Position numbers and translations under genes: made by a program. From Gammaproteobacteria bacterium (GTDB lineage Bacteria > Pseudomonadota > Gammaproteobacteria > Ga0077554 > Ga007554), in contig JAHFRW010000011.1 of the NCBI GenBank assembly GCA_023266055.1, forward strand, positions 1 to 64,000: a DNA stretch of 64,000 nt. The letters are read 5' to 3'. The notes under the pieces are model-generated. The model did not search any database. It had not been told where the DNA came from and was given only the letters and a program-made list of their open reading frames with translations. Position 1 is the first letter of the stretch. Each line of letters starts with the position of its first letter. Shown piece after piece: positions 11,201 through 64,000 of the stretch.

Positions 11201-12417
11201 AAATCCCTTACGGTGCAGTGTTGACCGTGAGTGATGGTGATATGGTGCAGGCCGGGCAGATCGTGGCCAACTGGGATCCGCATACCCATCCCGTGGTGAC
11301 CGAAGTGGCAGGCCGCATCAAATTCAGTGATGTGATTGAAGGTGTTACGGTACAGCGTCAAACCGACGAAATGACCGGGCTGAGCAGCCAGGTGGTTATT
11401 GATCCGAAGCAGCGCGGTGGTGCTACCAAAGACCTGCGTCCCATGCTGAAACTGGTGGATGCACAAGGCAATGATCTACGTCTTGCCGGTACTGATATCC
11501 CGGCAATTTACTTCCTGCCAGCGGGCGCTATTATCACGTTGGAAGATGGTGCCGCAGTGGGCGTGGGTGATGTTATTGCACGTATTCCGCAGGAAACCAC
11601 CAAAACCCGTGATATCACGGGAGGGTTGCCGCGTGTGGCTGACTTGTTTGAAGCTCGCAAGCCGAAAGATCCGGCAGCACTCGCTGAAATTTCCGGGACA
11701 GTCAGTTTCGGCAAGGAAACCAAGGGCAAGCGTCGTTTGGTGATTACGCCAAAAGAAGGTGATGTGCATGAGGAATTGATTCCGAAATGGCGTCACGTCA
11801 CGGTGTTTGAGGGTGAAAGCGTGGAGCGTGGTGAAACCATCGTTGATGGCGCACCTGATCCACATGACATCCTGCGTCTGCTGGGCATACCACCGCTGGC
11901 TAACTACATTGTTAACGAAGTGCAGGATGTGTATCGCTTGCAGGGCGTAAAAATCAATGACAAGCACATTGAAGTTATTGTGCGCCAGATGTTACGCAAG
12001 GTGGAAATTCGCAATCCGGGTGAGACCAAATTCATCAAGGGTGAGCAGATGGATCGTGCGCGTGTTCTTGAAGAAAACGAGCGTGTTCTGGTTGAGGGTA
12101 AAATGCCTGCGACCTGCGAAACCTTGTTGCTGGGTATTACCAAGGCCTCTCTGGCTACGGAGTCCTTCATCTCGGCCGCCTCGTTCCAGGAGACCACTCG
12201 TGTACTTACCGAAGCCTCTGTCAGTGGCAAATGTGACGACTTGCGTGGTCTGAAAGAAAACGTCATTGTAGGACGTTTGATTCCAGCCGGTACTGGCTTG
12301 GCGTATCACAACGAACGTCGTCGTGTACGCAGTCGCGACAAGGAAGAAGCTGCACAGGCCAAGATGGCACATGCTGCAACAGCAGAGCAAGCGTTTAAGG
12401 CACCCGTAGGGGCATAA
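8212..12417 (+). CDS. rpoC: DNA-directed RNA polymerase beta' subunit; probable TTG start
   Basis: [12 protein letters not shown] active-site motif. ORF track starts at 8131, but homologous N-terminus (M)[26 protein letters not shown] begins at TTG 8212, preceded by AGGAGA. Confidence 0.97.
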
Positions 12418-51222: not shown

Positions 51223-53526
51223 ATGGTAAACATCGAAATTGATGGCAAGCAGGTTCAGGCAAAAGATGGCTCGATGGTTATCGAGGCAGCGGATGATGCA
51301 GGTATTGCTATTCCGCGCTTTTGCTACCATAAAAAATTGTCTATTGCCGCTAACTGCCGTATGTGTCTGGTTGAGGTAGATAAAGCCGCTAAGCCCTTGC
51401 CTGCCTGTGCTACACCAGTGACAGAGGGGATGCGTGTATACACCAAATCACCGCGTGCACTTGATGCACAAAAAGGTGTGATGGAGTTTTTGTTGATTAA
51501 TCATCCGCTCGATTGCCCGATTTGCGATCAGGGTGGTGAGTGTGATCTGCAGGATCTGGCGTTGGGTTATGGCGCCAGCAATTCGCGTTTTCTGGAAAAC
51601 AAGCGTGTCGTTAAAGACAAGGATATTGGCCCATTAATTTCCACTGAAATGACGCGTTGCATTCATTGTACACGCTGCGTGCGTTTTGGTCAGGAAGTGG
51701 CGGGCGTTAAAGAGCTGGGCGCCACCGGTCGCGGCGAGCATATGAAGATTGGCATGTATGTGGAAAAGGCCATGGTTTCCGAGTTGTCGGGCAATGTCAT
51801 TGATTTATGCCCGGTGGGCGCGTTGACCTCCAAGCCTTTCCGTTATACCGCCCGTGTCTGGGAGCTGGCGCAGCGCGATACGATTGCGCCGCATGATTGT
51901 ATCGGTTCTCATCTATGTGTTGATGTGCGCGGTAACAAGGTCATGCGTTTCCTGCCGGGTGAGAATGAAGAGATCAATGAAACCTGGATTTCTGACCGTG
52001 ATCGCTTCAGCTATGACGGCTTGAACAGTGATGATCGTTTGCGCGTGCCGATGATCAAAAAAGATGGCAAGTGGCACGAGGTTGACTGGACCACAGCGTT
52101 TGAGTTTGCGGTGGCTGGTTTAAAGCCTGTGCTCACGCGTTATGGTGCAACACAGCTGGGTACGCTGGTGTCTCCGATTGCGACTGTTGAAGAAATGTAT
52201 CTGGCACAAAAACTGGTGCGTGCTCTGGGCAGTGATAATATTGACCATCGTTTGCGACAGCAGGATTTCAGCGATCAGGAAACCGCACCCCTTTATCCCT
52301 GGTTGGGGCAGAGCATCCCCGATCTTGAAAAGCTGGATGCTGCGTTACTGATCGGTTCAAACGTACGTAAAGAGCAGCCGATCGCCGGATTGCGTTTGCG
52401 CAAGGCAGCGTTGCATGGCGCAAACATCATGTTTGTGAATGCACAGCATCATGATTTTAATTTCCCTGTCAAGGCACAGCTGACGTCAGGCGTGGCGGGC
52501 ATGGAGCATGATCTTGCTGCGCTGGTGAAGGCGCTCCTGCATATTGCCGGCATGCCCGCAGGATCCGGCGTGCCGCAAGGTCTGGAATCATTGCTGGCCA
52601 ATGTTACCGTGACAGAGGCCCATACTGAGGTGGCCAAACGCCTGCATGCGTCAACCCGGGTGACGGTACTGCTGGGTAATCAGGCGCTGGCGCATCCCGC
52701 GCTGTCTACCTTGCGTGCGTTGGCGGGTGTGATTGCACAATTGAGTAATGCCGTATTGGGTTACCTGCCAGAGGCGGGTAACAGCGTCGGAGGCTGGTTG
52801 GCGGGTACTGTGCCACACCGCGGCCCGGCGGGCAGAATAGCGACCAGTCAGGGGCTGGATGCGAGCGCCATGTGGAGCGCTGGCCTTAAAAGTTATTTAT
52901 TGATGGGCATTGAACCCGAGTTTGATTGCGCCAACCCTGTGGCGGCCATGGAAGCGCTGGCAGATGCAGATTTTGTAATCTCTCTGACGGCCTACAAGAC
53001 CGATGCCATGCAGCAATATGCCGATGTGCTATTGCCTGTCACGCCCTTCACGGAAACATCCGGGACATTGATTAATGCCGAGGGGCGCTGGCAGAGTTTT
53101 TCCGGGGTGGTGGCTCCCTTGGGCGAAGCGCGTCCCACATGGAAAGTACTGCGTGTCATGGGTAATCTGTTTGATTTGCCAGGATTTGAATACATGTCAT
53201 CAGAAGAGGTGTGTGGTGAAGTGCGTGCCCTGGTGGCGGCGGTCAAGCCGGACAACACCATGCCGTGGCGCTGTCCTGAAGCTTTGAGTACTGACGATAA
53301 TTTACGTATTACTGCGGCACCAATATATGTGGTGGATGCGATTGTGCGTCGTTGCGATGCCTTGCAGCAAACGGTGGATGGCCAGCAGGGTGCATACTGT
53401 TTTGAAGAGGCGGCCAGCGCACAGCAGGCATTACGTCACGCCACACGTAACGCAGGCCATGCGGCGTCGCACCTGACCAGCCCGACGAGCACATCATCAA
53501 CGGGCAGGGTGGTATCACATGTTTGA
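51223..53526 (+). CDS. nuoG: NADH-quinone oxidoreductase subunit G
   Basis: [52 protein letters not shown]; FeS-cluster motifs; start at internal ATG. Confidence 0.97.
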
Positions 53527-54565
53527 ACTGGTTCAAGGCATATGGGGCGAGCTCCCCGAGCTCCTGAAAATTGTCCTGAAAATTGTGGTGATCGTGGTGC
53601 CCATCATGCTTTCCGTGGCCTATCTTACGTTGGCCGAACGCAAGGTGATTGGTTTCATTCAGGTGCGTATTGGCCCCAATCGCGTTGGGCCGGGTGGCTT
53701 TCTGCAGCCCATTGCCGACGGTTTGAAGCTGGTGCTCAAGGAAATCATTATTCCCACCAACGCCAATCGGTTTTTGTTTATATTGGGTCCCATCGCGGCA
53801 CTGGCACCCGCTTTGGCGGCGTGGGCGGTGATCCCGTTTAATGAAACAATGGTGCTGGCCAATGTTGATGCGGGATTGCTGTACATTCTGGCCATGACCT
53901 CCATGGGTGTCTACGGCATTATCATCGCCGGCTGGGCATCCAATTCCAAATACGCCTTTCTGGGCGCGCTGCGTTCTGCCGCACAGGTAGTGTCGTATGA
54001 AATCGCCATGGGTTTTGCCTTGGTGGGTGTATTGATTGCGGCAGGCAGCATGAATCTGCGGGAAATCGTGCTGGCGCAGCAAGGGAGCTTGCTGCACTGG
54101 TTCTGGTTACCGTTGCTACCGTTGTTTCTGGTATTTTTCATCTCCGGTATTGCCGAAACCAACCGTGCCCCCTTTGACGTGGCCGAAGGCGAGTCCGAAA
54201 TTGTAGCTGGCTTCCATGTTGAATACTCGGGAATGACATTTGCGCTGTTCTTCCTGGCGGAATATGCGGCCATGATCCTGGTGTCGATACTTACATCGCT
54301 GATGTTTCTGGGCGGATGGTTGTCGCCGTTTCAGGGTATACCGTTTCTGGAGGATGCGTTTGCGTGGGTACCGGGCATCGCCTGGTTATTGGGTAAGACG
54401 GCAGTATTCCTGTTTTTGTTCCTGTGGTTCCGTGCTACTTTTCCACGTTACCGCTATGACCAGATCATGCGTTTGGGCTGGAAGATATTTATCCCCATCA
54501 CGATTGTCTGGCTATTAGTGGTTGGCGGCTTGGTGTTGGCTGAAGTTGGGCCCTGGTTTGATTAA
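53519..54565 (+). CDS. nuoH: NADH-quinone oxidoreductase subunit H
   Basis: [54 protein letters not shown]. Confidence 0.98.
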
Positions 54566-54570
54566 TGGGC

Positions 54571-54609
54571 ACCTCTATAAGTTCGCGCCTTGATCGAATT
54601 TATAGAGGT
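54571..54609. repeat. 15-bp inverted repeat at the nuoH/Rhs junction
   Basis: ACCTCTATAAGTTCG-cgccttgat-CGAATTTATAGAGGT, 14/15 paired, 5 bp after the nuoH stop. Confidence 0.75.
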
Positions 54610-54656
54610 ATCCATATACCTGCACCCTATAAAAATTTACTGAGCAAGAGAATGTA

Positions 54657-57600
54657 ATGCGTATCTTTGGCAAACTACTTGGCCCCATTCTTTTTTTCTG
54701 TGTAGCTGTTTTTTTTCTGCCTTCGGTTTCATTTTCTGCTCATGCTCCCGTTCCGCCAGGTTCACATCTTGTTTATTTTTACGACAACAGTGGCCTCAGC
54801 GGACTTCCTCCTGCGCCAAAATTCCCTACTTCGTTGCAAGCTGCAGAGTATGGTATTCAGTGCTTTATAGTCGGATGCTATGGCAGCCTTGGCATTACCC
54901 CTATCCCTAATTATCAATCTCACGTTTTTACACGAATGGCGGTCACTGACACATACAAGGACGTGTATGTTTATACCATTACCCAATCAACAATTTGTTG
55001 GGGGGGCGTCCTCTGCACACGTGAAATCCCTATTACCGTCTATCACGAACTTCCACCCCCACCGCGCATCGTCATCCTGGACAAAACCAAAAAAAATCCC
55101 GACATATGTCTTGTGGTGGGCAACCCGATCCATCCAGCCACTGGCAACAAGCAGCAAGTCGAAACCGACTACAGCGGCATGGGCCTGTTCCCGCTGGTTC
55201 ACCAGCGCACCTATAACAGCGCCGGGGAGCTGGGTGCGGGTTGGCGCAACTTCTATGATCGCACTGTTTCCTGGTATTCCGTAACTGATCCGGTCACAGG
55301 CACTACAGTCAGCACCGCTACTGTCACCCGCCCCAATGGCAAGACCTACACATATACACTGAGCGGCAGCACCTGGGTGGTAGACGCCGATATCAGTGAC
55401 CGGCTGACCGGCAACAACTCCACGGACTGGACGTACACTTCTGCCCAAAATGACGAGACCGAAATTTACAGCGCTAATGGGGCGCTGCTGTCCATCACTA
55501 ACCGGGCGGGCTTAACGCAAACCCTGGCCTACGATACCCAGGGTCGTCTTTCAACGGTGACGGATCCCGTCGGACGCCAACTCACGTTCACCTACGATAC
55601 CTCCGGCCGCATGGCCACCCTGACCGATCCGGCCAGTGGGCTTTATCTCTACACCTATGATGTCGATGGTAACCTCAGCACCGTCACCTACCCGGACGGC
55701 AAAACCCGCACCTACCTCTACAACGAGCAAGCCTACACCCAGAACACCGCGCAGCGTCGTGCGCTCACCGGCATCATTGATGAAAACAACAGCCGCTACG
55801 CCACGTTCGGCTACAACGCCACCGGCCTCGCTATTTCAACAGAGCATGCCGGCGGTGTCGAACGCGTTACTGTCAACTATGGCACGCCGCCGCGCATCGA
55901 ATCGTCTTCGTACCTCGATCCGGTGACGAATATCACCTACGTTACCCTCTATTACGTGCCGCCCACCGTCACCACCGTCACCGATGCCTTGGGCACAACG
56001 CGGGGTTATGATTTCCAGTCGGTTAACGGTGTGATTAAAAATACTGGCCTCACCCAACCCTGCCCCACCTGTGGCGGGGACACCGCGGCCAGCACCTATG
56101 ACGCCAACGGCAACCCGGCTTCCAAGACCGACTTCAACGGCAACGTCACCACCTACGGCTACGACCTTACGCGTAATTTAGAGATCAGCCGCACCGAAGC
56201 CGCAGGCACGCCCCTGGCGCGAATCACCACCACCACGTGGCACCCCACCTTCCGGCTACCCACGCAGATCACCGAACCCAACCGCGTCACCACCTTCACC
56301 TATGACACCCAAGGCAATCTCACGCAAAAAACCATCACTTCCGGCACGCTCAGCCGCACCTGGAGCTATACTTATAACGCCTTGGGTCTGGTCACCCGCG
56401 TCAACGGCCCGCGCAGCGACGTTGCGGACGTGACCACCTATACCTATGATGCTCAAGGCAACCTCGCCAGTGTCACCAACGCCTTGGGCCATGTCACCAA
56501 CATCACCACCTACGATGCTCACGGTCGTCCTTTAACGATCCAGGACCCCAACGGCGTCATTACCCAGTTGCGCTATGATGTACGGGGTCGCCTGATTTCC
56601 CGTTTAGTGGGCACTGAATTTACCCAATTCCAGTACGACGGTGTTGGCCAGCTCACCCGCATCATACTGCCCGACAGCAGCTTCATGGATTACCGCTACG
56701 ATGCGGCTCACCGCCTCATCGCCATGACCGATGCGCTGGGCAACAAAATTAGCTACACGCTGGATGCGCTGGGCAACCGTATCAAGGAAGATATCCTCGA
56801 CCCCAGTAACGCTCTCACCCAGCAGCGCCGCCGCGTGTTTGATGGCCTCAACCGCCTTGCTCAAGACATCGGCGCGCAAAACCAGGTTACAGCGTATCAA
56901 TACGATGCCAACGGCAACCTGCTCAGTCGCACCGATCCCCTGGCGAACACCACCACCCACGGCTATGACGCCCTTAATCGTTTGGCGCAAGTTACTGACT
57001 CTGCCAGTGGCATCGCCCGCTATACCTACAATGCCAATGACCGCCTCATTCAAGCCATCGACCCGCGTGGTATCGGCACCGCCTACAGTTATGATGGCCT
57101 CGACAACCTCACCCAGACCGTAAGCCTGGATGCCGGAACGAGTGCCCACACCTATGATACGGCGGGCAATCTTGCCACTCAAACCGACGCCCGCAATAAA
57201 AAGACCGTCTACACCTATGACGCCTTGAACCGCCTCATCCAAACCCGGTTCGCCGACGCCACCCGCATTGTCTACCAATACGACACCGGCACTCACGCCA
57301 TCGGCCGTCTGATTAAAATGACCGATCCGGCAGGCATCACCCAATGGACCTACGACCCGCAAGGGCGGGTTATCACCCAAACCCAAACCACCGGCACCCT
57401 CAATCAGGTACTGCGTTATGGATACGACGCCAGCGGACGCGTGGCGCAACTCACCTACCCTTCGGGCAAAGTGATCAGCTACGGTTATGACCTTGCCGGC
57501 AACCTCGCCCAGCTCGGCCTCAACGGCCAACCCCTGCTCAACAACATCCGCTACCAGCCCTATGGCGCGGTGAAAGAATGGACCTGGGGGAACGGTACCC

Positions 57601-58760
57601 TGCACAGCCGTGCCTTTGATGCTGACGGGCGCATGGTCAGTCACCCCCAAGGCAATGCCCCGCTCTCCATCAGCTACGACAGTGCCGGGCGCATCGTCCA
57701 GCAAACGCAGAGCACCGGCGTACACAGCTACGGCTATGACAGCGTCGACCGCCTCACCCAGCACGTCGACGCCACCGGCCTGCTCAGTGACTACCAGTAC
57801 GACACCAACGGCAACCGTACCCAACTCACCCAGGGCAGCCTCGCCACCGCCTACCACCTCTCGATCACCAGCAACCGCCTCAATAGCCAGAGCGGGGCGG
57901 TAACCAAAAGCTACACCTACGATGCCGCAGGCAACCTGATCAGCAACGGCACCCATGCTTACACTTATAATGCACGCGGACGCCTTGCTAAAGTCACCTA
58001 CGGCACCCGCAGCAACACCTACGCCCTCAACGGCCTCGGTCAGCGCATCCGCAAGACCGGCTACGGCGTCAGCACGGGCACTAACCGTTATGTCTATGAC
58101 GCACAAGGCCACCTGCTCGGTGATTACACCAGCACCGGCGTCGCGATCCAGGAAACCGTGTATCTGGGTGACATTCCCGTGGCCGTGCTTCAGGGCACCG
58201 CAGTGTATCACCTCCATGCCGACCACCTCGACACCCCGCGAGTGATCACCGACAGCACCGATAAAGTGATCTGGCGCTGGGACAGCGACCCGTTTGGCAC
58301 CACCGCCGCCAACGAAGACCCTGACGGGGACAGGAAGAAATTCATCTATAACCTGCGTTTTCCGGGACAATACTTTGACAAGGAGACCGGGCTGCATTAT
58401 AACTATTTTAGGGATTATGACCCGAGGGTCGGGCGGTATGTGCAGAGTGATCCGATTGGGTTGCGGGGTGGGTTGAATACATACACCTATGTCGATGGCA
58501 ACCCGATAAGTTATATTGATCCGTTAGGATTAGCCAAATTACCACCTATACCACCGCGACCTCCAACCAACACAGAACGACCTGTTCCGCAACCTGTTCC
58601 GCCGCCGACATCAGGAAGACCTTCGTGCGATTTAGTGTTTTCCACTTGCATGGCAGCATGCGTGTCTAAATGTCCAGGCCCTGGATTAGTGAAGGTTGGA
58701 GCTTGCGGAACTCTGTGTGTAACTTTGTTTTTGATCTGCAAGCATGATGGTGGCGAATAA
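54657..58760 (+). CDS. Full-length Rhs/YD-repeat protein with Sec signal peptide, DUF6531-like region and Cys-rich C-terminal tip
   Basis: Signal peptide MRIFGKLLGPILFFCVAVFFLPSVSFSA; VGNPIHPATGNKQQVETDY; many YDAxGNL repeats; Rhs core end FPGQYFDKETGLHYNYFRDYDPRVGRYVQSDPIGL then a unique tip. Confidence 0.95.
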   Translation: MRIFGKLLGPILFFCVAVFFLPSVSFSAHAPVPPGSHLVYFYDNSGLSGLPPAPKFPTSLQAAEYGIQCFIVGCYGSLGITPIPNYQSHVFTRMAVTDTYKDVYVYTITQSTICWGGVLCTREIPITVYHELPPPPRIVILDKTKKNPDICLVVGNPIHPATGNKQQVETDYSGMGLFPLVHQRTYNSAGELGAGWRNFYDRTVSWYSVTDPVTGTTVSTATVTRPNGKTYTYTLSGSTWVVDADISDRLTGNNSTDWTYTSAQNDETEIYSANGALLSITNRAGLTQTLAYDTQGRLSTVTDPVGRQLTFTYDTSGRMATLTDPASGLYLYTYDVDGNLSTVTYPDGKTRTYLYNEQAYTQNTAQRRALTGIIDENNSRYATFGYNATGLAISTEHAGGVERVTVNYGTPPRIESSSYLDPVTNITYVTLYYVPPTVTTVTDALGTTRGYDFQSVNGVIKNTGLTQPCPTCGGDTAASTYDANGNPASKTDFNGNVTTYGYDLTRNLEISRTEAAGTPLARITTTTWHPTFRLPTQITEPNRVTTFTYDTQGNLTQKTITSGTLSRTWSYTYNALGLVTRVNGPRSDVADVTTYTYDAQGNLASVTNALGHVTNITTYDAHGRPLTIQDPNGVITQLRYDVRGRLISRLVGTEFTQFQYDGVGQLTRIILPDSSFMDYRYDAAHRLIAMTDALGNKISYTLDALGNRIKEDILDPSNALTQQRRRVFDGLNRLAQDIGAQNQVTAYQYDANGNLLSRTDPLANTTTHGYDALNRLAQVTDSASGIARYTYNANDRLIQAIDPRGIGTAYSYDGLDNLTQTVSLDAGTSAHTYDTAGNLATQTDARNKKTVYTYDALNRLIQTRFADATRIVYQYDTGTHAIGRLIKMTDPAGITQWTYDPQGRVITQTQTTGTLNQVLRYGYDASGRVAQLTYPSGKVISYGYDLAGNLAQLGLNGQPLLNNIRYQPYGAVKEWTWGNGTLHSRAFDADGRMVSHPQGNAPLSISYDSAGRIVQQTQSTGVHSYGYDSVDRLTQHVDATGLLSDYQYDTNGNRTQLTQGSLATAYHLSITSNRLNSQSGAVTKSYTYDAAGNLISNGTHAYTYNARGRLAKVTYGTRSNTYALNGLGQRIRKTGYGVSTGTNRYVYDAQGHLLGDYTSTGVAIQETVYLGDIPVAVLQGTAVYHLHADHLDTPRVITDSTDKVIWRWDSDPFGTTAANEDPDGDRKKFIYNLRFPGQYFDKETGLHYNYFRDYDPRVGRYVQSDPIGLRGGLNTYTYVDGNPISYIDPLGLAKLPPIPPRPPTNTERPVPQPVPPPTSGRPSCDLVFSTCMAACVSKCPGPGLVKVGACGTLCVTLFLICKHDGGE
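57724..58463 (+). repeat. Rhs core duplication, copy 1
   Basis: Near-identical to 59743..60482 (constant offset 2019 at the points checked). Confidence 0.9.
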
Positions 58761-58761
58761 T

Positions 58762-59091
58762 ATGGATACACTCGCCTACCCTTCAAAAGGCTTTGTGAAA
58801 AACGTAATAATCGCTATTAAAAATAGCCATGAAATAAAAATTATTGTCCTTCCGGGATGGCGAAAAAAAATAATATTAACTGAGTTGCCTGGTTTTTTAC
58901 ATGACAAAGTGGCCAGCAATAGTAAGCGGAGCTGGAAATTTATATTTGGTATGTTCCTAGTATCACATTTTCTTACTGCCTATTTTTACGCTAGATCTGG
59001 GGGGTATACTGCAAGTTATATGGATGGTGACGAATTAATTGTAAATTTGAAGCCGCCCGGTGGATCGAGCTCGGTAGGTTGGGCTGAATGA
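58762..59091 (+). CDS. Small TM protein immediately downstream of Rhs tip 1 (candidate immunity protein)
   Basis: ATG one base after the Rhs stop; TM segment FIFGMFLVSHFLTAYFYA; last residues SVGWAE* are encoded by a GTAGG repeat. Confidence 0.5.
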   Translation: MDTLAYPSKGFVKNVIIAIKNSHEIKIIVLPGWRKKIILTELPGFLHDKVASNSKRSWKFIFGMFLVSHFLTAYFYARSGGYTASYMDGDELIVNLKPPGGSSSVGWAE

Positions 59092-59105
59092 GATGAAGCC
59101 AAGCC
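59074..59105. repeat. GTAGG-hairpin REP-like repeat R1
   Basis: GTAGGTTGGGCTGAATGAGATGAAGCCaAGCCC. Confidence 0.65.
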
Positions 59106-59113
59106 CGTAGCCC

Positions 59114-59144
59114 GTAGGTTGGGGTGAATGAAATGAACCCCAAC
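59114..59144. repeat. GTAGG-hairpin REP-like repeat R2
   Basis: GTAGGTTGGGGTGAATGAAATGAACCCCAAC. Confidence 0.75.
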
Positions 59145-59206
59145 AAAAAGCTGGCGGCTTGCGCAATGGGTGGTTATGAATGATGTATTGTGCGGGTCTG
59201 TGAAGA

Positions 59207-59314
59207 ATGCGATATCGGCGTGCGGATGTGACTGGGGGTACGTATTTCTTTACGGTCAACCTTGCGCAGCGAAGCCGTACATTATTGGTTGATGAGGGCC
59301 GTAGGTTGGGCTGA
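59207..59314 (+). pseudogene. Truncated REP-associated tyrosine transposase (RAYT), N-terminal fragment
   Basis: MRYRRADVTGGTYFFTVNLAQRSRTLLVDE then runs into repeat R3 and stops. Confidence 0.8.
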
Positions 59315-59330
59315 GGCACGAAGCCCAACA
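59301..59330. repeat. GTAGG-hairpin REP-like repeat R3
   Basis: GTAGGTTGGGCTGAGGCACGAAGCCCAACA, identical to R6. Confidence 0.85.
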
Positions 59331-59374
59331 ATGTTGGATAAGAACACTGACGAAATGTTTAACGCGCGTAAGGC

Positions 59375-59408
59375 GTAGGGCAGATTAGGCGCGAGCCGTA
59401 ATCCGCCG
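59375..59408. repeat. GTAGG-hairpin REP-like repeat R4 (divergent)
   Basis: GTAGGGCAGATTAGGCGCGAGCCGTAATCCGCCG. Confidence 0.6.
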
Positions 59409-59435
59409 AATGTAACAACCGGATGTGTTGATAAT

Positions 59436-60785
59436 TTGTTGCAACGAGGCATTTTTTCTGTGAATTTTGGAGCGATGGCTGATGTTTCTGCAAAGGCGCG
59501 AAGCGCGTCGCCGATGGGTGCGAGACGCTTGGCTATTGCACCCTATGCTTGCCGGGGCATCAGCTACAGCTACGACGGTGCCTTACCGCTCAGCGAAACC
59601 TGGAGCGGCGTCGTCACACGCGCCTACAACGCCGACTTCAACTACAGCGGAGCAAGGGGTCACGTCTTGACATCATTCATTTTATTCCGGTGGACAGCTC
59701 CGGCGCGTTGCAAATGGCTAGCGAAAACGGCCCCTACCGTACAAAGCTATGGCTATGATGCCGTCGACCGCCTCACCCAGCACGTCGACGCCACCGGCCT
59801 GCTCAGTGACTACCAGTACGACACCAACGGCAACCGTACCCAACTCACCCAAGGTAGCATCGCCACCGCCTACCACCTCTCGATCACCAGCAACCGCCTC
59901 AATAGCCAGAGCGGGGCGGTAACCAAAAGCTACACCTACGATGCCGCAGGCAACCTGATCAGCAACGGCACCCATGCTTACACTTATAATGCACGCGGAC
60001 GCCTTGCTAAAGTCACCTACGGCACCCGCAGCAACACCTACGCCCTCAACGGCCTCGGTCAGCGCATCCGCAAGACCGGCTACGGCGTCAGCACGGGCAC
60101 TAACCGTTATGTCTATGACGCACAAGGCCACCTGCTCGGTGATTACACCAGCACCGGCGTCGCGATCCAGGAAACCGTATATCTGGGTGACATTCCCGTG
60201 GCCGTGCTCCAGGGCACCGCGGTGTATCACCTCCATGCCGACCACCTCGACACCCCGCGAGTGATCACCGACAGCACCAACAAAGTCATCTGGCGCTGGG
60301 ACAGCGACCCGTTTGGCGCCACCGCCGCCAACGAAGACCCGGACGGGGACCGCAAAAAATTCACCTATAACCTGCGTTTTCCGGGGCAGTACTTTGACAA
60401 GGAGACGGGGCTGCATTATAACTACTTCAGGGATTATGATCCGAAGATCGGGCGGTATGTGCAGAGTGATCCGATTGGGTTGGCGGGGGGGGTGAATCTC
60501 TATCAGTATGCCAAATCCAATCCACTCATCTATACCGATCCGACCGGAGAGAGTCCAATTGACTGTGCAAAAACATTTATCAGATGTAAAAAATGTGTAG
60601 ATGAAGGAAAAGAATGCCAGCAGAAACATTCTGATCCAATAGCCTGCCTCGATAGAGGTGAGAAACTAGGATTGAGTGTTTTTGGGCATATTGCGCAACA
60701 GTGCGCGCTGAAAAGTCCAGCGTGCGTGAATTGTGCAGTTGACATTATCAAATGTGGCTTTCAACCCTTGCCATTACCAAAGTAA
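59436..60785 (+). pseudogene. 5'-truncated mosaic Rhs copy 2 with a different Cys-rich tip
   Basis: Starts without a signal peptide, contains an Rhs piece (SYSYDGALPLSETWSGVVTRAYNADF), a foreign stretch, then the duplicated Rhs core and tip DPTGESPIDCAKTFIRCKKCVDEGKECQQ.... Confidence 0.75.
59743..60482 (+). repeat. Rhs core duplication, copy 2
   Basis: Near-identical to copy 1; even closer to copy 3 over 60021..60482. Confidence 0.9.
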
Positions 60786-60801
60786 TAACAAAGTCAAGGC
60801 A

Positions 60802-61254
60802 ATGAAAAAGAATACAAAATTAATGTTCTTTTCAATAGGGATACTATTAACAGGGTTTGCTGGTGGATTTTATATGGGGCAAACAATGACTAGCCAAATA
60901 CTTAATGGTGGAGCAGTAACTGTTTCAGCAAAACTCATTGAATTAGAAGCCAGCGATGCGGAGCGCGCATACAAATCAGGCAACATTTTAAAACAAATTT
61001 ATGGTCTGGAGCATTTTGGAAAGATTCTTGAGCATAATGTAGGTTCGTCACCCATTGTTGCTGATGAGGTAATTTATATTGATCTTGCTATTACATATAC
61101 ACGACTTGGCTTGTTGTCTCAGAAAATGAATAATCAAGAGAATGCGAATATATACTTTAATAAGGCGGTTGTTTTTTATAAAAAAACAGGAAAAGAGATA
61201 GCGGTTGATAAGTTAGTTAGCTTGGTTAAAAGAATGGATGAAAATTTGCAATAA
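60802..61254 (+). CDS. Single-TM-anchored protein downstream of Rhs tip 2 (candidate immunity protein)
   Basis: MKKNTKLMFFSIGILLTGFAGGFYMGQ membrane anchor, helical remainder; 16 nt after the Rhs copy 2 stop. Confidence 0.6.
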   Translation: MKKNTKLMFFSIGILLTGFAGGFYMGQTMTSQILNGGAVTVSAKLIELEASDAERAYKSGNILKQIYGLEHFGKILEHNVGSSPIVADEVIYIDLAITYTRLGLLSQKMNNQENANIYFNKAVVFYKKTGKEIAVDKLVSLVKRMDENLQ

Positions 61255-61322
61255 CGCTGACTGGATGGAATCGAAGAAGCCGAATAAAGGCTCATCTGGA
61301 ACTGGAATCTGATGGTGCCTCT

Positions 61323-61910
61323 ATGCCTTTAAATATTGGAGAAAACCCTTCGCAGGTAGAAGAAATACGTGTCGCGAGCGAATTGCTGCATGACGGGAAA
61401 TATCGTGATGCTTATGAGCACTTTTTGAGCCTAGCACAGAGGGGATCAACAATGGCTTGGTTTAATCTTGGATGGATGTATCACACGGGAACAGGTGTCG
61501 ATAAAGATCTTGATAAAGCAAAGCAGTATTATCAACAAGCAGCTGATAGTGGATCTCCGATAGCGCGTCATTATCTTGGAACGCTTTATCGCGCGAAAGG
61601 AAGCTTCAATGACGCTCTTCATTGGTTTGAGCTTGCGGCAAAAGATGGTTATCTGCCGTCGATATATTGGGCCGGAAGCATGTACTTGCTTGGTGAGGGC
61701 ATTTCACAAGATGTTAAAAAGGCAGAGATCTATCTGCGAACTGCAACCGAGAAAGGACACGTTTACGCTAGGCGCGATCTAGCGCTCGCCTTAATTAAGG
61801 GCTCTTTCGGGCATAGAGAGATCGTTAAGGGTGTGTTTGAATGGCTAGGATCAATCATTGCAGGAATGCGCCTCGGTGCTCGTGAACCTCAAAGCGAACA
61901 ACTAATGTAG
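61323..61910 (+). CDS. Sel1-like repeat protein
   Basis: AWFNLGWMYHTGTGVDKDLDKAKQYYQQAADSGSPIARHYLGTLY and SIYWAGSMYLLGEGISQDVKKAEIYLRTATEKG. Confidence 0.88.
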   Translation: MPLNIGENPSQVEEIRVASELLHDGKYRDAYEHFLSLAQRGSTMAWFNLGWMYHTGTGVDKDLDKAKQYYQQAADSGSPIARHYLGTLYRAKGSFNDALHWFELAAKDGYLPSIYWAGSMYLLGEGISQDVKKAEIYLRTATEKGHVYARRDLALALIKGSFGHREIVKGVFEWLGSIIAGMRLGAREPQSEQLM

Positions 61911-61913
61911 CCA

Positions 61914-61944
61914 GGTAGGATGGACACGGAAGGCGTGCCCACGG
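61914..61944. repeat. GTAGG-hairpin REP-like repeat R5 (divergent)
   Basis: GTAGGATGGACACGGAAGGCGTGCCCACGGG. Confidence 0.45.
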
Positions 61945-62021
61945 GGAATGAATAAACGTGATGACTGATGAAACATTGTGGACGTTGCTTGTCGTCAAGA
62001 TGAACTATAACGGCGTGATAT

Positions 62022-63167
62022 TTGATAACGAAAAAACAACCAGGGATCATGATTAAGTTGAAATACCCTCATCCAAATTACAATACCGTACAGCCAGCCC
62101 GCGCTGACCGCTTGCGTCTATTGTGGTACTGGTTACAGGATCACTGCGATAATGGTACGCATCGGCTGATTGACGTTTATAAAATCCACGGCAATCGTAT
62201 AGCGCATAACGATGCCGCAGGCAACCTGATCGGTGTTCTGACCGGCACGGGTGCCCAACTCTACGCCTACAACGCACGCGGACGCCTCGCCGCCAGCGTC
62301 ATCTATGAGAATGCCCAGGGCACCCGCAGCAACACCTACGCCCTCAACGGCCTCGGTCAGCGCATCCGCAAGACCGGCTACGGCGTCAGCACCGGCACTC
62401 ACCGTTATGTCTACGACGCACAAGGCCACCTGCTTGGTGATTACACCAGCACCGGCGTCGCGATCCAGGAAACCGTGTATCTGGGTGACATTCCCGTGGC
62501 CGTGCTCCAGGGCACCGCGGTGTATCACCTCCATGCCGACCACCTCGACACCCCGCGAGTGATCACCGACAGCACCAACAAAGTCATCTGGCGCTGGGAC
62601 AGCGACCCGTTTGGCGCCACCGCCGCCAACGAAGACCCGGACGGGGACCGCAAAAAATTCACCTATAACCTGCGTTTTCCGGGGCAGTACTTTGACAAGG
62701 AGACGGGGCTGCATTATAACTACTTCAGGGATTATGATCCGAAGATCGGGCGGTATGTGCAGAGTGATCCGATTGGGTTGGCGGGTGGGCTTAATACATA
62801 CGCGTATGTCGCTAACAATCCTTTGCGGTTCACCGATCCAATGGGATTGATGGGATCAAGTGGCATGCAATCTCCTTCCTCTCCTGGAGCCAGTGCATCT
62901 TGCGATGGTCGGTGGCGCAAGATTCGATGGATCCGGGATCCATTTTCAGCGTTCACGCTCACATGTACATGTTATTGGAGCTGCACATCCTGTCCCAATT
63001 CTGGTAAGGGGGACGCATTCTCTGACCCTAACTTTGGCCAATATTCGACCAAAGGCAAAATTATTTTTTCCGGAAAACCCGGTGTTGATTACGATCCGGA
63101 AGCTGGAGATGCATGCCAATGTGGTGAGCCGGGGTCGTCAAAAGGTTGTGATCCATGCGGAAACTAA
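62022..63167 (+). pseudogene. 5'-truncated Rhs copy 3 with a third Cys-rich tip
   Basis: No signal peptide; Rhs core from about 62212; tip DPMGLMGSSGMQSPSSPGASASCDGRWRKIRW...CTCYWSCTSCPNSG...CQCGEPGSSKGCDPCGN. Confidence 0.75.
62319..62780 (+). repeat. Rhs core duplication, copy 3
   Basis: Near-identical to 60021..60482 (offset 2298 at two checked points). Confidence 0.9.
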
Positions 63168-63670
63168 TATTCTTCCGCGTGAGAGCGGTGTTAAGCAGCG
63201 TTTTCTTAACGACCATTCTTGGTTGTTCTTCTGGAACGGAGAATTACGATCTTATTAAAGAATTCTCCGTGCCGGAGGGCGCTTATAACGTGAAGAGACG
63301 GACACTGGGGAGCAACGGTGCAGAACAGCTATTTTTTCAAACCAAAGAGACTTATCCATCCACTCGCGTGCTGGACACGTATCGGGACTTTTTGCGAAAT
63401 CATGGGTGGATACAATGCTCTGGCGCAAACAAGAAATGGTCATCTCACGAAGACAGGTCGTCTAGCCCGTATTTGTTAGTTCATAAGTTGAGTGAGCATT
63501 GGATAAAACGAGGTGACCACAAGCTGCTCATACTGAGCGCGATGTATTACTCCGAGAAACTTACTAACGAACGACCCGACAATGACGAGCAGCACTTGAT
63601 TGTCTGGGTGCAGCGTGTCGCAGATCTGGAAAAAGAACTATCTGGTATTGGCGTAGCCTGTAATCTATAG
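63155..63670 (+). CDS. Putative lipoprotein downstream of Rhs tip 3 (candidate immunity protein)
   Basis: MRKLIFFRVRAVLSSVFLTTILGCSSG lipobox; overlaps the Rhs copy 3 stop by 13 nt. Confidence 0.65.
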   Translation: MRKLIFFRVRAVLSSVFLTTILGCSSGTENYDLIKEFSVPEGAYNVKRRTLGSNGAEQLFFQTKETYPSTRVLDTYRDFLRNHGWIQCSGANKKWSSHEDRSSSPYLLVHKLSEHWIKRGDHKLLILSAMYYSEKLTNERPDNDEQHLIVWVQRVADLEKELSGIGVACNL

Positions 63671-63674
63671 CGCG

Positions 63675-63704
63675 GTAGGTTGGGCTGAGGCACGAAGCCC
63701 AACA
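63675..63704. repeat. GTAGG-hairpin REP-like repeat R6
   Basis: GTAGGTTGGGCTGAGGCACGAAGCCCAACA, identical to R3. Confidence 0.85.
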
Positions 63705-63817
63705 TGATTGGATTAAAAATTTTGGTGCGATGTGTAATCGAGAGCATTGGTTTTGAGACATGAATAAACGCATGACAAAATGCATAGCAACAACATGTTG
63801 GGGTTCGCAAAAAGCGC

Positions 63818-63847
63818 GTAGGATGCGGTGAGGAACGAACCGCATCG
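63818..63847. repeat. GTAGG-hairpin REP-like repeat R7
   Basis: GTAGGATGCGGTGAGGAACGAACCGCATCG, directly upstream of a RAYT start. Confidence 0.8.
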
Positions 63848-63882
63848 TTCGAGAATGCAAGGGGTGACAAGGAGAAAGGCCA

Positions 63883-64000
63883 TTGACTGAATATCGTCGT
63901 GCCCGTGTGCCGGGCGCCACATGGTTTTTCACGGTGGGACTTATAGACGGATTTGGCCGAACGGCGGGGCAATGGCTTGTTGGTTGAGAGAATCGATACT
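63883..64000 (+). pseudogene. REP-associated tyrosine transposase (RAYT) 5' end, apparently frameshifted; continues past window
   Basis: TTG start after AAGGAG; frame 1 (M)TEYRRARVPGATWFFTVGLIDG..., then homology resumes in another frame as LAERRGNGLLVERIDT from 63953. Confidence 0.75.

Follow-up and report, generated by a model that had tools for sequence, protein, structure and literature searches.

An Rhs cassette array inside the complex I operon

The window analysed here, 64,000 nucleotides (nt) of contig JAHFRW010000011.1 from a gammaproteobacterium (assembly GCA_023266055.1), carries near its right end an array of three Rhs cassettes, each with a conserved core end, a short cysteine-rich C-terminal tip and an adjacent small gene that we call its partner; the array and the gene directly upstream of it lie on the forward (+) strand. 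We find that the full-length Rhs protein belongs to cassette 1, whose open reading frame (ORF; 54657-58760, 1367 aa) encodes an exported core (54657-58532) with a Sec-type signal (MRIFGKLLGPILFFCVAVFFLPSVSFSA, hydropathy 2.9), DUF6531, about 19 YD/RHS repeats and Rhs_assc_core, with family matches to PF05593 (5e-107), PF20148 (3e-11) and TIGR03696 (8e-25). Cassettes 2 and 3 are truncated core ends lacking an export signal (59742-60548, inside ORF 59436-60785, and 62319-62849, inside ORF 62022-63167). The core end of the window Rhs reads GRYVQSDPIGL, not GRF..APNPxxWxDPLGL, and a Pfam scan finds no PAAR domain on the protein. TssB (PF05591) is absent from the source genome, a fragmented assembly that is 94.6% complete (E. 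coli control positive), and Pfam and NCBIfam scans reveal neither the two-partner secretion domain nor the filamentous repeats of contact-dependent inhibition (CdiA) systems.

Comparison of the DNA backwards from the junction shows that the three core copies share one end point, at 58463, 60482 and 62780. Copies 1 and 2 are 96.2% identical over 740 bases counted back from the junction, copies 1 and 3 95.0% over 462 bases, and copies 2 and 3 98.9% over 462 bases; because copies 2 and 3 are 100% identical across the final 300 core bases, where copy 1 differs by 6%, they derive from a more recent common core than either shares with copy 1. Beyond the junction, identity among the cassettes over 300 bases drops to ~33-38%. 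The initial annotation had described near-identical repeats with a single end point, which these measurements bear out, and full divergence after VQSDPIGL, which needs correction: in the protein, the Rhs motif GG-x-N-x-Y-x-Y...NP....DP-x-G persists for ~23 residues more, and the tips proper are therefore 75, 78 and 105 aa long. The cores have a G+C content of 57-60%, against 44-50% for the tips and 34-47% for the partners, a drop that fits horizontal acquisition. A repetitive extragenic palindromic (REP)-like repeat (GTAGGTTGGGCTGAGGCACGAAGCCCAACA) lies between cassettes (59072-59110, 59295-59344 and 63669-63718) and occurs again at ~11490-11530 of locus L258. Judged by its sequence, the array is real: it consists of three cassettes with exchangeable Rhs tips, each followed by its own probable protective gene.

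The operon gene immediately upstream of the array is nuoH (53519-54565), and the right end of the array reaches a contig break; nuoI lies beyond the array on contig C15, whose far end holds the remainder of a REP-associated tyrosine transposase (RAYT) gene and then an orphan membrane protein. Array, RAYT and orphan membrane protein thus split the complex I operon between nuoH and nuoI (54565-64000; G000:C15, L258 10898-12248), two genes that adjoin each other (15-92 nt) in G313, a genome of another family, and in five genomes from other genera of the same family as the window. The RAYT gene runs from ~63884 to 64000 and on through 12008-12248 of L258, apparently cut by the C3/C15 break. A genome of the same genus, G001, has the order nuoH-rhs-DUF6188 partner-DUF4258-nuoI; its rhs core aligns with window positions 55970-58492 at 81% DNA identity over 2.5 kb, stopping just past the DPIGL junction, and its tip, with one Cys, differs from the window tips. 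To go by this alignment, one chromosomal site keeps its Rhs core while tip and partner are exchanged. Elsewhere in the genus, an smc-like gene and not nuoH precedes nuoI in G002 (L270, G002:C123), and the operon is split there too.

Tips and partner genes

Tip 1 (58533-58757) has 7 Cys in the arrangement CX6CX3C...CX3CX6C and tip 2 (60549-60782) has 9 in CX6CX2C...CX2CX6C, while tip 3 (62850-63164) has a 9-Cys scaffold that recurs on the Rhs protein of another family. The mirrored pattern CX6CX2-3C...CX2-3CX6C common to tips 1 and 2 is met in one further case among the ~190 tips surveyed below, and these two may be one structural type. The description of the tips as short and Cys-rich thus stands, and that of three unrelated tips stands in part: different sequences follow one junction, but tips 1 and 2 may not be wholly unrelated. 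Their unlikeness to known toxins is upheld by curated models, as no window tip has a Pfam or NCBIfam match at E<=1. Searched alone, tip 3 returns only core-motif matches from the genome contigs and nothing from plasmids.

The partners follow their tips at the spacings first annotated, which we confirm as +1 nt, +16 nt and a 13-nt overlap. Partner 1 (58762-59091, 109 aa) has no Pfam or NCBIfam match and one marginal transmembrane helix, which our hydropathy rule does not call; its C-terminus (SSVGWAE) enters a REP-like repeat, of which 59075-59091 form the end of the gene. Partner 2 (60802-61254, 150 aa) has a clear N-terminal hydrophobic membrane anchor and TPR-like repeats (TPR_8, weak), and partner 3 (63155-63670) is a 171-aa lipoprotein with a clear lipobox, ILGC, so that the annotation of membrane or lipoprotein partners is secure for these two and marginal for partner 1. 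A good AlphaFold2 model of partner 3 (pLDDT 79) has DcrB and the Eag chaperones SciW and EagT6 as its nearest folds in the PDB, at a TM-score of ~0.3-0.4 and E above 1e-3; as the TM-score is low, we take this likeness as no more than a fold-class hint.

Between cassettes 2 and 3 lies a Sel1-repeat ORF (61323-61910; PF08238, 8e-20), which is probably a fourth, orphan immunity gene, since Rhs tips in L181, L182 and L188 have one of its relatives directly behind them. PADLOC matches to partner 3 and to the Sel1 ORF were set aside as weak or repeat-driven, and a partner 3 match in L085, which sits among housekeeping genes, as chance.

Pair 3 recurs in another family

Relatives of the tips and partners were sought in ~370 genomes of the class. 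A relative of tip 3 is found in G313 on a 1602-aa, signal-bearing Rhs protein (E 6e-6), with nine of nine Cys columns aligned between the two tips; the next gene encodes a lipoprotein about as long as partner 3 and shares 13 nt with the tip, the same overlap as in the window. A relative of partner 3 occurs in L024 (E 1.6e-12). The initial annotation had proposed looking for the same tip and partner behind other Rhs cores, and this comes out positive for pair 3, with pairs 1 and 2 not found; its suggestion of an undescribed toxin/immunity family set likewise applies to tip 3 and partner 3, whereas tips 1 and 2, undescribed as well, have no confirmed relatives that would prove them to be families. 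The overall layout that it recognised, Rhs tip/partner cassettes with displaced orphans, is sustained by the cassette repeats and their junction, by the tip swap at the orthologous site and by the recurrence of pair 3. The G313 Rhs protein (L081 3833-8641) also has inserted calcium-binding/dockerin-like repeats (DRDGDGLTDLDE) ahead of its core end.

Tips behind the window's type of core end almost always have an odd number of cysteines

Surveys with TIGR03696 gave ~190 non-redundant tips, with redundancy handled by shared 4-mers, and these fall into classes by core end: class S, the window's type (YN..R.YD...GRYxxSDPIGL), mostly Sec-exported; class P, PAAR-like (GRF...APNPxxWxDPLGL); class R (RARYYDP); and others. 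We find an odd Cys count in 83/86 non-redundant class S tips, with an even count in three and zero in none (p 2.7e-21), or in 92/95 with tips from named plasmids included. Class P tips are unbiased (22 odd, 17 even, 2 none), as are those of class R (12 odd, 9 even, 7 none). Class S was defined on a first set (66/69 odd), with its boundary redrawn once after the data had been viewed; applied unchanged to a second set of 38 further non-redundant tips, the definition gives 17/17 odd, and class P tips there divide into 5 odd, 6 even and 1 none. Named plasmid records add nine of nine odd class S tips, e.g., those of Methylobacter (WP_268121009.1, 5 Cys), Thiodictyon (WP_172965424.1, 9 Cys) and Mitsuaria (WP_067283610.1, 3 Cys). 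A Kosakonia class S plasmid tip sits in a type VI secretion system (T6SS) locus, and the core end is therefore an imperfect marker of Sec export. Rhs core ends are numerous in five genomes (G244, G882, G792, G129 and G292), with 9 to 30 per genome, most of them short orphan cassettes.

The odd count is kept equally by class S tips with predicted cytosolic partners (32/32) and with envelope partners (45/46), which indicates that it belongs to the delivery type and not to the target. The last Cys lies <=7 residues from the C-terminus in 39/86 class S tips (18.5 expected), often within CxC or CxxC, and 13 of the odd-count tips hold a single Cys. Many exported proteins of Gram-negative bacteria are reported to avoid an unpaired Cys, with a preference for even counts (PMC7678975), and the class S tips run opposite to this preference; we found no account of the rule in the literature searched, which left subscription journals mostly outside its coverage.

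Several origins of the odd count were considered and rejected. An artefact of the tip boundary is not indicated, as 78/86 tips are still odd after the last 60 core residues are added. A core Cys cannot be the general pairing partner because the mature cores of L118, L122 and L134 have no Cys, against 5, 7 and 5 in their tips; total Cys parity in 20 full-length proteins is about half odd and half even. Pairing with the partner protein finds no reflection in the partners, which are unbiased (53 odd, 40 even, 14 none), most lipoprotein partners having an even count when the lipidated Cys is left out.

Partner location and sibling tips

Partner location was called by a hydropathy rule rather than by SignalP. 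By this rule, a predicted signal, lipobox or transmembrane segment is present in 46/78 partners behind class S tips compared with 2/36 behind class P tips (Fisher p 1.5e-8), and predicted cytosolic partners follow the other 32/78 class S tips. On comparable loci, sibling tips match Tlde1, TseH, the eCIS_core metallopeptidase and Tox-REase-9 above Pfam cut-offs, the Tlde1 tip being carried by a core end outside class S, and the phospholipase A2 (PLA2) motif CxxHDxCY is found in the Rhs tips of L105, L146 and L290, with a membrane-type partner where one was called and Pfam scores below cut-off for L105 and L146. Since sibling tips match toxin models, the tip position in such loci carries toxins. 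The core type by itself does not imply an envelope target, because 32/78 partners are predicted to be cytosolic and the nuclease Tox-REase-9 is among the siblings; for the window tips, however, the envelope or periplasmic target suggested in the initial annotation is likely.

Interpretation

We consider it probable (about 0.78) that the array is a polymorphic toxin locus, with a Sec-exported Rhs protein bearing tip 1 as its current toxin and with the two displaced cassettes and the Sel1 orphan as remnants of earlier tips. That the tips are candidate toxins and the partners candidate immunity proteins, as we infer from the family, is well supported. Export of the Rhs protein would proceed without a type VI system; the tip would sit inside the YD-repeat shell and be released into a neighbouring cell, with the envelope or periplasm as its most likely site of action. 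Being disulfide-rich, as we propose, the tip would fold in an oxidising compartment, and tips arriving from siblings would be neutralised by the partner, anchored in the envelope of the producer as a membrane protein or lipoprotein. The orphan cassettes would not be exportable, their partners staying as protection against relatives that use those tips, and homologous recombination in the conserved core end would exchange tip and partner as a unit. Within this scheme we infer the toxicity, the neutralisation, the target and the route across the outer membrane.

A number of observations weigh against this interpretation. None of the three window tips hits a model of a known toxin, the AlphaFold model of tip 3 is poor (pLDDT 49), convincing relatives of tips 1 and 2 were not found, and in the other genomes searched neither was met together with its partner. 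The G313 lipoprotein is only weakly similar to partner 3 by pairwise BLAST (E 2), its homology resting on position, length, lipobox and multiple alignment. Relatives of partner 2 in Pseudoalteromonas plasmids (E 1.6e-9) are standalone, with no Rhs beside them, and G022 has two lipoproteins from the family of partner 3 that likewise occur on their own, one adjoining a REP-associated transposase; such standalone relatives would also be expected of orphan immunity genes. It is also conceivable, although quite improbable, that displacement has left decayed or inert C-termini as tips, followed by genes that are unrelated cargo. That cassettes 2 and 3 have no export signal, that partner 1 terminates in a REP-like repeat and that tips 1 and 2 lack close relatives would all accord with decay, but the array ORFs are intact, the scaffold and gene order of pair 3 are conserved in another family, and the Cys parity of the tips is maintained throughout class S.

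An unlikely alternative within a toxin locus is that the tips are aimed at the cytoplasm, e.g., as membrane-crossing nuclease-like domains, and that envelope partners merely block their entry. The window tips are short and without the charged catalytic motifs of nucleases, and partners 2 and 3 bear a clear anchor or lipobox, observations that argue for an envelope target; on the other side, Tox-REase-9, a cytosolic-type toxin, is also carried on class S cores, and the odd-Cys rule is kept equally where partners are predicted to be cytosolic, as 32/78 are. As for the cysteines, the CXC and CXXC spacings present in the tips would suit metal binding of a zinc-ribbon-like kind in place of disulfides, which would leave the odd count without redox meaning. 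We regard this as very improbable, given that 13 odd-count tips hold just one Cys, that the Rhs protein is Sec-exported, that PLA2-type tips have the CxxHDxCY disulfide scaffold, and that metal sites would not set parity over unrelated domains.

What the odd count might mean is a more finely balanced matter. We see even odds that exported, non-T6SS Rhs tips keep one Cys beyond internal pairing, whatever their domain or partner site, and that this extra thiol acts outside its own chain, as the Cys-free cores would require, e.g., in a disulfide with a sister tip, an exporter, a carrier or a target receptor; our best guess at its role is an intermolecular disulfide or the use of a free thiol in delivery. 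If true, this would be a general and undescribed step of contact-toxin delivery. That a large and diverse class of exported toxins nearly always keeps one unpaired Cys suggests that these toxins have a delivery step in common, which would be traceable by single-residue mutation. The odd-Cys rule thereby offers a handle on how Sec-exported Rhs toxins cross the outer membrane and enter their targets; the array itself adds a new 9-Cys toxin candidate with a lipoprotein partner.

Comparison with known systems

The array resembles the Rhs/YD polymorphic toxins (PMC2935791; Zhang et al. 2012, PMC3482391) in its conserved core, Rhs_assc_core junction, variable tip, adjacent small gene and arrays of dissociated tips, and C-terminal displacement with such dissociated-tip arrays has a precedent in the rhs genes of Enterobacteriaceae (PMC2935791). 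With the bacterial teneurin-like toxins it shares an export signal, a YD shell with a polymorphic C-terminus and an immunity gene, and one C-terminal domain described there inhibited E. coli only with a secretion signal (PMC13018210); a term search of the same paper turned up no Cys-parity rule. Tox-PLA2 (Zhang et al. 2012), Tlde1 and TseH are seen as sibling tips with transmembrane or signal-bearing partners, and the window tips match none of these models. Relative to DcrB and Eag, partner 3 is a lipoprotein encoded after its tip, whereas in L318, the sole T6SS rhs locus seen, a DcrB-related gene precedes rhs. The best-studied Rhs toxins are of the PAAR/T6SS type, and the window Rhs differs from these in its Sec-type signal, in the absence of TssB from the genome and in its GRYxxSDPIGL core end, a core type with odd-count, Cys-rich tips and mostly envelope-located partners.

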